Below are positions 8,085 through 10,990 of a stretch of DNA of 64,000 nucleotides, one piece after another. A program made the position numbers and the translations under genes. The notes under the pieces are model-generated. The model was not told the DNA's origin. It saw nothing but the letters and a program-made list of their open reading frames with translations, and ran no database searches. Source of the stretch: Bacteroidales bacterium (GTDB taxonomy: Bacteria > Bacteroidota > Bacteroidia > Bacteroidales > M50B96); NCBI GenBank assembly GCA_021740905.1, contig JAIOYV010000022.1, forward strand, positions 1 to 64,000, read 5' to 3'. The number at the start of each line of letters is the position of its first letter. The first letter of the stretch is position 1.

Positions 8085-9449
8085 TTAGTCTAAAATCAGT
8101 TTTTCAATTACTTTTTCATCATCCTTTTCGTACACAAAATAGTACAAGCCGGAAGGCAGGCCCATTCTGTTAAATAGGAAATTTTTCTGTCCTGAAACAT
8201 TCAATGTGCGAAGCATCTTGCCTTGCGAATCGTAAATTTTCAATTGCTGATTGCCTTTGATTTCAGAAGGAAAAACAATCATGCAATTTTCTGTGCAGGG
8301 GTTCGGGTAAATTTGAATGTGGGTTTTATTCATATCTTTAATCCCAGCCTGAGTGGTTGTAATACACCTGAAGTTTTGAGTGAATTTATTCTGGGCTACG
8401 CTATCGTTAGCGAATTCAATTTTCACCCTGCCCGTATCAGCTACTGAGTTTGTATTAAAATACATGGTAAAAGTACCGGTATCGCCGGGCTGTAAAAAAA
8501 CATGGGCAACATCGGTAAACACATCATAACAATTTTGATGGGTACACAATTGCGAGGTCCAACCCTGGGGCATGTCGTTTACCAGTTTGGTTATGGTCAT
8601 ATATACATTGCCCTGGCTGTTGTTGGCATATTTTGCTTTGGTCGAATGGGTGAGACCAGGTGCTCCAATTACCTGGGGTGATCCATCTAATGTGAAAGTA
8701 AAATTCCCATTTGAACCTGATCCGCCACATCCAGTTGGGTAGCCTAGCAAACTGTCGATGTCGCAAAAAATATCGGCAGGTGTACCATCGGGGTGAAAGT
8801 CGTCGAACTCGCTGTGCATGGAAAATATCACACCTGTTGAATCAAGAAGTACTGCATTATTGGGCCAGTTGGTGTAATACATCCACCATTCGTTGCATGG
8901 GCCATCCAGTAATACAGGAGCATTGACTGTCATGGTTTGAAGCAGGTGGGTCACATTGTATTTTCGTTCGCTGTATGTTTTGGGCTGACTGTAATAAGAA
9001 CCATCAGGGGCCGGGGTTTGCCATACGTTGCCACTGTATGGGCTTGGGTCGGGGCTGGCAGGATGAGCTTCAACAGCATACACAACATAAACCTGGAGGC
9101 GGTCGGGGTAAGCGGCCACAACCTGGTTTTGAATGGGCAGACTGTTCGTAAACTTAGGTCAGGTAAAACTTCCTGAGACAAGGAGGATATGCTTGCCCAC
9201 ATTCAGCAACTGGTCATGTAGGTTTACCGAATCACCATTCAAATCATACAAGGTAAAATCGGCCATTGTATCACCCACATCAGGGACTGTGTGGGGTATT
9301 CCACCATTGCTTGGGTTTACATTGTGAATGTAACAAATCGAATCGGCATCAGAGGGTAGGCTGAATAAACCGATGGACGGCAATAAGGTTATTCCCTGTG
9401 ATGCGCAGAGAAGCGGCAGAAACAGGAACAGAAAACTAAATTTTCGCAT
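8085..9449 (-). CDS. Deiodinase-like thioredoxin-fold protein, in-frame UGA at active site, T9SS cargo
   Basis: Read through the UGA at 9161-9159 (codon 97), this is a 454-residue protein. Residues 1-17 (MRKFSFLFLFLPLLCAS) are a signal peptide. The next part has DFTLYDLNGDSVNLHDQL, a redoxin-type start, then ILLVSGSFT-UGA-PKF. Iodothyronine deiodinase-like proteins carry GSxT followed by Sec or Cys and then P at this place. The reading frame continues past the UGA with VYAVEAHPASPD, matching the deiodinase EAH motif, and later VNAPVLLDGP and AVLLDSTGVIF. The C-terminal 75 residues (IYPNPCTENCMI...GLYYFVYEKDDEKVIEKLILD) form a type A T9SS sorting domain. Both halves lie in the same frame with no other stop. 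Either selenocysteine is inserted, or a Cys codon has mutated. No sel genes lie in this window. The start at 9449 is set by the signal peptide. Confidence 0.7.
9121..9164 (-). promoter_or_regulatory. Candidate bacterial SECIS-like hairpin at the UGA codon
   Basis: On the minus strand the UGA lies at the base of a possible stem: ACCUG (9164-9160) pairs with CAGGU (9125-9121); inside it GUUU (9153-9150) pairs with AAAC (9129-9126) and GAA (9147-9145) pairs with UUC (9133-9131), around an 11-base loop (CAGUCUGCCCA). Bacterial SECIS elements sit just after the UGA with a G near the start of the loop. The loop here begins only 14 bases after the UGA and the stem is interrupted, so this is a weak candidate. 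Confidence 0.3.
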
Positions 9450-9695
9450 ATTGAAATTTTTTGATAAAGATACACATAATTGATTGTGGTTGTCCGGCCA
9501 ATTTCTCAAATCAGAATGGCTGGGAATCTTTCAATTGGAGTAAGGGAATGTAGGTGTATTGGGTGAGAATTTACCCCTTCTTCGCCAATTCACCATCATA
9601 CAAATCCTTTATATAGTAGAATCATTTTCAGAAACCTTTGAAATGTGTCCTATCTGATAAGGCTGCCCTTGCATATATTGATATGTATATATTAT

Positions 9696-9703
9696 TATAT
9701 TTG
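9696..9703 (+). promoter_or_regulatory. TAnnTTTG promoter box
   Basis: TATATTTG matches the Bacteroidetes -7 element and lies 21 bases before the ATG at 9725, giving a short leader. A TTG at 9678-9680 is a poor -33 match because the spacing is short. It supports the 9725 start over the longer frame that begins at 9638. Confidence 0.45.
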
Positions 9704-9724
9704 CCAGGTACTAAAACAAATAAT

Positions 9725-10990
9725 ATGAAAAGCAGATTTTACACATTGATTATTATTGCCGGATTGATAGCGATAGTTGGTTTGACCAGTTCGTTTACCG
9801 GACAACCAAAGGCAACTCAAACCCCAGGTAATATGACATTTACTTTTAAAACAGTGACCAACAACGGAACCTATTCGCCAAAGCATGTATTGGCAGTATG
9901 GATAGAGGACTCGAACGGATTTGTCCGCACCCAGTTGCGGCGGGCCGTGGCAAGGAAACAATACCTTTACACCTGGATCGCTTCCACTGGCCAAAACGAA
10001 GTGGATGCAACCACGGGGGCTACCCTCACATCGCACCAAACCCAAACCATTACCTGGGATTGTAAAGACCTTAGCGGAAACGAAGTACCCGATGGGGATT
10101 ATACAATTAGGGTTGAGTTTACCGACAAACATGCCCAAGGGCCGCTGTATTCCATAACCTTTACAAAAGGGGCCACATATCAGCACCTTACGCCTGCCAA
10201 TGAAACCAACTTTATCAATATTGATCTTGAATTTACCCCTGAAGTAGCTATTGCTGATTTTTCGGTAAATACTCAATCGGTATGTACTGGTGAAGATGTC
10301 GTATTTACCGATAATTCTTCCCTTGCCACCAGCTATGAATGGGATTTTGGCGATGGTGCCAATCCTGCAACAGCCAATACGGTTGGGCCACATACGGTAA
10401 GCTATTCAACTTCGGGGGCAAAAACAGTAAGCCTTACAGTGAATGGTTCGGTTGTTCAATCGTTTACCAATTATATTACTGTTGAAGCTACTCCGGTTGC
10501 TGGATTTACGCAATCCATCGGTAATAACCTGGAAGTGACATTCACAAGTACAGCGACTGATGCCCTTGTGTGGGAATGGAATTTTGGCGATGGAAACTCA
10601 AGTTCTTTGGAGAACCCTGTTCATACGTATGCCACAGAAGGCAATTACGAGGTGCAGTTAACTGCCATTAATGTTGATTGCGAGAATGATTTTTCCCAAA
10701 TGATAAATGTGGTAAACCAAGGGATAGAATCAAATGGGACAACCTTTGGATTTTCAATTTTTCCAAATCCGGGCAACGGCATTTTCAATATCCACATAAA
10801 CGAAAATTCCATCGGCTTTCCCAATGTCAACATTTATGATTATAGTGGAAAGATGGTGCACCATCAAGTAGTTTCCAATTTGATTAACGGTTCTTTTGCG
10901 CTGGATGCCGGTAAACTTGCCCCTGGAATCTATTTTATGAAAATTCAGACGGGAGAAGAAATTAATATTGAAAAGTTAGTGGTTCAGTAG
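9725..10990 (+). CDS. DUF2271/PKD protein with T9SS type A sorting domain
   Basis: A 421-residue exported protein. It has a signal anchor or peptide (about residues 1-25), then a DUF2271-like domain (about 35-165: YSPKHVLAVWIEDSNGFVRT, TGATLTSHQTQTITWDCKDLSGNEVPDGDYTIRVEFTD). DUF2271 is otherwise a small periplasmic protein often found near flavin-linked or PepSY proteins. Two PKD domains follow (about 175-255 and 255-335; YEWDFGDGANP and WEWNFGDGNSS), then a C-terminal sorting domain (SIFPNPGNGIFNIHI...GIYFMKIQTGEEINIEKLVVQ) for export by type IX secretion. Ligand unknown. The start at 9725 gives a proper signal sequence and a promoter box at the right distance. A hairpin terminator follows. 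Confidence 0.8.
   Translation: MKSRFYTLIIIAGLIAIVGLTSSFTGQPKATQTPGNMTFTFKTVTNNGTYSPKHVLAVWIEDSNGFVRTQLRRAVARKQYLYTWIASTGQNEVDATTGATLTSHQTQTITWDCKDLSGNEVPDGDYTIRVEFTDKHAQGPLYSITFTKGATYQHLTPANETNFINIDLEFTPEVAIADFSVNTQSVCTGEDVVFTDNSSLATSYEWDFGDGANPATANTVGPHTVSYSTSGAKTVSLTVNGSVVQSFTNYITVEATPVAGFTQSIGNNLEVTFTSTATDALVWEWNFGDGNSSSLENPVHTYATEGNYEVQLTAINVDCENDFSQMINVVNQGIESNGTTFGFSIFPNPGNGIFNIHINENSIGFPNVNIYDYSGKMVHHQVVSNLINGSFALDAGKLAPGIYFMKIQTGEEINIEKLVVQ

Follow-up and report, generated by a model that had tools for sequence, protein, structure and literature searches.

Selenocysteine or interruption

The window, as we call the whole 64,000-nucleotide stretch of Bacteroidales DNA analyzed here, carries a gene for a deiodinase-like protein whose frame is broken by a single TGA. 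Is this codon read as selenocysteine (Sec), or has the gene been interrupted? We put the probability that the TGA is the Sec codon of a secreted deiodinase-like protein at roughly 0.87, based on the sequence comparisons set out below.

The frame runs on the minus strand from 9449 to 8085, terminates in TAA and has TGA at codon 97 as its sole internal stop, where the preliminary description had placed an in-frame UGA (9161-9159). A further 357 open codons lie 3′ of the TGA, in agreement with the more than 350 described earlier, and the motifs then read from the translation (GSFT-TGA-PKF, EAHP and VLLDGP) are all present. The coding signal goes on downstream of the TGA with the frame unchanged: the codon-usage log-odds past this point are +0.162 per codon in frame, compared to −0.013 and −0.083 for the other two frames. 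As in bacterial selenoproteins, the UGA thus lies inside an otherwise open, conserved frame. The window holds five places where a TGA separates open segments of similar size; homologues were sought for the place at 9161-9159 only, where they align on both sides of the TGA. The next gene (9638-10990), on the opposite strand, likewise encodes a protein with a T9SS tail, in this case combined with PKD and DUF2271 domains.

Features of the window gene, with the loci of TGA-containing redoxins found across the order
Feature	Position	Strand	Basis or remark
Whole reading frame, predicted deiodinase-like exported protein	8085..9449	-	454 codons, one of them the TGA proposed to encode Sec
Putative N-terminal signal peptide (MRKFSFLFLFLPLLCASQG)	9393..9449	-	Hydrophobic N-terminus judged by eye from sequence
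Deiodinase-like thioredoxin-fold domain, residues 53-208	8826..9293	-	NF038285 and PF00837 (both below cut-off), Foldseek
Proposed selenocysteine, in-frame TGA, residue 97, GSFT-U-PKF	9159..9161	-	Aligned to Cys of homologues and to the Sec site of mouse Dio2/Dio3
Weak candidate SECIS hairpin	9118..9145	-	8-bp stem, 12-nt loop beginning 22 nt past the UGA
T9SS type A C-terminal sorting domain, residues 380-452	8094..8312	-	PF18962 and TIGR04183, both above cut-off
TGA redoxin loci	L110-L116, L125, L128, L129, L132, L137, L138, L140-L148		22 genes among the matches listed

Domain architecture and predicted fold

The C-terminal sorting domain suspected earlier is matched by two models (PF18962, E = 3.9e-11; TIGR04183, E = 1.7e-11), as in cargo of the type A class of type IX secretion (T9SS). 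The thioredoxin-fold domain is more divergent. It scores 20.2 bits against PF00837 (T4_deiodinase), under the gathering cut-off of 27 bits, and two homologues score 28.1 bits (L105, which passes) and 26.3 bits (L104); judged from sequence, we regard the sub-cut-off similarity of the window protein as real. Against NF038285 (deiodinase family protein) it reaches 57.9 bits (E = 1.1e-15), under the NCBI cut-off of 250 bits, and by this measure the protein is a relative of that equivalog, not a member. A structural model of the window protein matches the ResA/TlpA thioredoxins and deiodinase 3 (Dio3) in Foldseek searches; the model is of low confidence (mean pLDDT of 52), so these matches count as support only.

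Position of the TGA among homologues

The proposal that the UGA occupies the Sec or Cys position of deiodinases holds in two sets of alignments. In phmmer comparisons, codon 97 is paired with the Sec residue of mouse deiodinase 2 (E = 0.00046) and of deiodinase 3, a site at which the sequences aligned, being those of crystallized mutants, have a cysteine, and the EAHP histidine is matched as well. Judged from these alignments, the correspondence with the deiodinase Sec site is not a chance match. Furthermore, a cysteine is found exactly at the TGA codon in four homologues with T9SS-type tails (L054, L055, L104 and L105), as is expected of relatives of a bacterial selenoprotein, in which the UGA position is taken by Cys or Sec. 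The closest, L054 and L055, come from Flavobacteriales metagenome-assembled genomes and are 51–52% identical to the window protein over the domain, with the tail of L054 verified by Pfam; L104 and L105 are more distant. All close homologues examined are of the Cys form, with no TGA version among them. A search for tRNA-Sec in five Cys-form genomes (those of L054 and L055, G454, G502 and G542) found none: in G454 the single match is a tRNA-Leu, and the other four gave no match at all.

Selenium machinery of the source genome

SelB and SelC are the signatures of the Sec-decoding trait (PMC1273633). The source genome is a draft assembly (G000; 6.54 Mb in 160 contigs, 97.06% complete), in which the preliminary description had called for a search for the sel genes. 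The part of this search concerning selC and selD succeeded. A tRNA-Sec gene is located on contig C83 (13118-13206) with a score of 56.2 bits, above the Rfam cut-off, and is named tRNA-SeC with anticodon TCA (UCA) by ARAGORN; the composition of this contig agrees with that of the window (tetranucleotide r of 0.98). The genome's weaker tRNA-Sec matches prove to be tRNA-Ser, Cys, Tyr or Leu. Two copies of selD are present above cut-off. One lies in a single frame of 758 residues (contig C105, L017:253-2529), in which a NifS-like cysteine desulfurase is fused to SelD, and the other (L018) adjoins a YedF-like gene; both NifS and YedF are named from sequence.

The part concerning selA and selB did not succeed: neither gene was found in the draft, even at E ≤ 10 with queries from the same family. 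The best match to the SelB model is EF-Tu and the second best CysN/C, and the C-terminal region of SelB had no match. Both genes are present in two of three genomes of the same family (G001 and G002), and in G001 selC, selA and selB form a complete, contiguous cluster; downstream of selC in the source genome, a C1-peptidase-like gene stands where G001 has selA. On contig C88 of G092 (L090), selD and genes resembling NifS and YedF are clustered with selC-selA-selB. The preliminary description had named the absence of selA, selB or selC from the complete genome as evidence against Sec; as the assembly is a draft at 97.06% completeness, its content does not amount to such an absence. We infer that both missing genes are hidden in a gap of the assembly. 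Less probably, as they are missing from a draft that is 97% complete, there may have been a recent loss of the trait, an alternative considered below.

A second TGA gene beside selC

Directly adjoining the tRNA-Sec gene is a frame of 620 residues (L053:564-2426, on C83) which also contains one TGA (FVT-U-GSC). The encoded protein has a thioredoxin-like domain, PKD domains and a T9SS tail. The TGA is located at the first Cys position of a CxxC site and is followed by 560 open codons, with neither a frameshift nor a second stop. The orthologue in G001 has a TGA at the same column, with 59% identity over the N-terminal domain and 61% identity in the 100 residues after the TGA, and adjoins the selC-selA-selB cluster in divergent orientation. 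A paralogue with Cys is present on contig C69 of the source genome. This gene likely encodes a second selenoprotein of the source genome, a T9SS-tailed UxxC redoxin. The family to which it belongs is of the AhpC-TSA/Thioredoxin_8/ResA-like type.

TGA-containing redoxins across the order

An alignment of redoxins of this second type revealed at least 22 genes in which a single TGA takes the place of the first Cys of CxxC, spread over at least 16 of the 295 genomes of the order; both counts are lower bounds from the matches listed. T9SS tails were verified by Pfam in four and are similar by eye in the rest. Among the same matches, SelA is found above cut-off in 13 of the 16 genomes with TGA redoxins, compared to 22 of the 279 others (Fisher p = 4e-11, with genomes counted as independent despite their kinship), and ARAGORN identifies a tRNA-Sec in 14 of the 16. 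In four genomes (G001, G265, G200 and G159), a TGA redoxin lies within ∼8 kb of selA. The weaker matches to tRNA-Sec in G237 and in further genomes turn out to be tRNA-Ser or tRNA-Leu. SelA is missing from 3 of the 16 genomes among the matches listed, compared to ∼1 expected from their summed incompleteness, so that assembly gaps are a fair explanation. One 95% complete draft (G035) has two TGA redoxins (L147 and L150) and neither SelA nor tRNA-Sec was found in it; both are present in its congener G148. Genes of this kind would come out cut or shortened from standard gene calling, in which every TGA ends a frame.

Hairpins downstream of the TGA

A bacterial SECIS element is a hairpin located shortly after the UGA, usually with a G in the first two bases of its loop. 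The candidate in the window gene, with a predicted energy of −2.8 kcal/mol, does not stand out significantly from synonymous shuffles (p = 0.19), and neither of the first two bases of its loop is a G. A simple minimum free energy test of the region was uninformative (z = +1.29). As a group, the TGA genes do have an excess of downstream hairpins over the Cys genes, which supports Sec insertion for the group: the mean z against synonymous shuffles is −1.31 for 23 TGA genes and −0.34 for 19 Cys genes. Two Cys controls taken at the wrong place (L134 and L135) were excluded from the test of the difference between the groups. The p value of this difference (5e-4, from rounded z values) is optimistic, since the sequences are related.

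Weighing the explanations

The Sec reading proposed at the outset draws support from selC, selD, the Cys homologues and a second TGA gene conserved in a sister genome. Its most serious competitor, which we consider improbable, is that selA and selB were lost recently, leaving selC and the two TGA genes behind as truncated relics in decay. Their failure to appear in the draft at E ≤ 10, and the other gene in the place that selA holds after selC in G001, are what such a loss would leave. However, decay would not be expected to spare both frames for 357 and 560 codons past their TGAs, free of frameshifts and second stops, or to leave selC above its score cut-off, and the missing SelA in 3 of the 16 listed genomes is fairly explained by gaps. 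A single Cys-to-stop mutation that made a pseudogene of a Cys-type deiodinase-like gene is less probable still. The homologues examined do have a cysteine, one base change from TGA, but the mutation would have had to strike the catalytic codon, in a genome that has a tRNA-Sec and also a second TGA gene of redoxin type, itself conserved in a sister genome. Since 40 of the 454 codons of the window gene, besides codon 97, are also one step from TGA, a random nonsense change would land on codon 97 about once in 40 times. The TGA at the catalytic site, the tRNA-Sec with selD, the second TGA gene and the order-wide association with SelA together make a lone nonsense mutation unlikely.

An error of sequencing or assembly at 9159-9161 is very improbable: the gene is known from a single contig of a draft assembly, yet an error would have had to fall exactly on the Sec site of the family in a genome with tRNA-Sec. 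We give almost no weight to a UGA that is read by a suppressor or under a reassigned code instead of as Sec. The tRNA on C83 does read UGA, but both ARAGORN and Rfam identify it as the Sec tRNA, and TGA is the ordinary stop of 10 of the 47 window genes, so the code is not reassigned.

A proposed route from selenium to the cell surface

Under the Sec reading, SelD would supply selenophosphate and the tRNA-Sec, with its UCA anticodon, would be charged; SelB would then bring it to UGA 97, cued by a downstream hairpin. The deiodinase-like thioredoxin-fold product would leave the cytoplasm through the Sec pathway and reach the cell surface or the medium through the type IX system. There, its single Sec, a selenol standing alone in the TUPxF site, would act as the nucleophile in a redox reaction. 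Insertion of Sec, export and redox chemistry are each predicted here from the sequence features described above; that the reaction might be a dehalogenation is guessed from the fold.

The TGA genes of this order bear a type IX secretion signal wherever checked, which suggests that a group of uncultured Bacteroidota may export a whole set of selenium proteins. It seems somewhat more probable than its converse that a clade of this phylum keeps an extracellular selenoproteome, in which deiodinase-like and UxxC redoxin selenoproteins pass the inner membrane and leave by the type IX system. In this picture, the deiodinase-like protein would work as a selenol enzyme at the cell surface or after secretion, perhaps as a reductive dehalogenase or a peroxide reductase, its substrate being a guess. 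If so, T9SS serves these bacteria to carry selenols out of the cell, and one may ask how Sec withstands export and oxidation, what reductant serves it outside, and which substrate repays the selenium lost to the medium.

A survey from 2006 did not find Sec decoding in Bacteroidetes (PMC1794560). Here, SelA is encoded in 35 of the 295 genomes of one order, judged to be Bacteroidota from their T9SS proteins. In the accessible part of a 2016 survey, a single Bacteroidetes genome is named, solely as a carrier of an orphan SelD (PMC5029168). An exported selenoprotein in Bacteroidota had been put forward as an undescribed combination, and none was found in the searchable literature; queries joining selenoproteins with T9SS or type IX secretion returned only unrelated work. 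The coverage of this literature is partial, and an earlier description may exist elsewhere.

Comparison with known systems

Deiodinase-like bacterial selenoproteins (PF00837), in Sec and Cys forms, are described from marine metagenomes of the Sargasso Sea (PMC1088965) and the GOS (PMC2398784), as seen in the accessible parts of these papers. The window protein resembles them in its thioredoxin fold and in belonging to a family with Sec or Cys members, and differs in its sub-cut-off PF00837 score and in the addition of a putative signal peptide and a T9SS tail, an architecture that those parts do not mention. The animal deiodinases Dio2 and Dio3 share the GS-x-T-U-P-x-F motif and the EAHP histidine with the window protein, and its predicted fold, from the low-confidence model, matches Dio3 with 17–18% identity in the fold alignments. 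In contrast to these enzymes, it is bacterial and predicted to be secreted, and nothing suggests that its substrate would be thyroid hormone.

The second TGA family is of the same type as the prokaryotic UxxC selenoproteins that resemble redoxins and thiol-disulfide isomerases (PF08534, PF13905/cd02966; PMC13188914, PMC9312934), from which it is set apart by the T9SS tail and, in some members, by PKD or GEVED domains. The accessible parts of these two papers do not mention Bacteroidota, nor does T9SS occur in that of the one searched for it. With the type A cargo of Bacteroidota (TIGR04183), the window protein has in common a sorting domain that scores above cut-off, and it departs from known cargo of this class in the Sec that we propose it carries.
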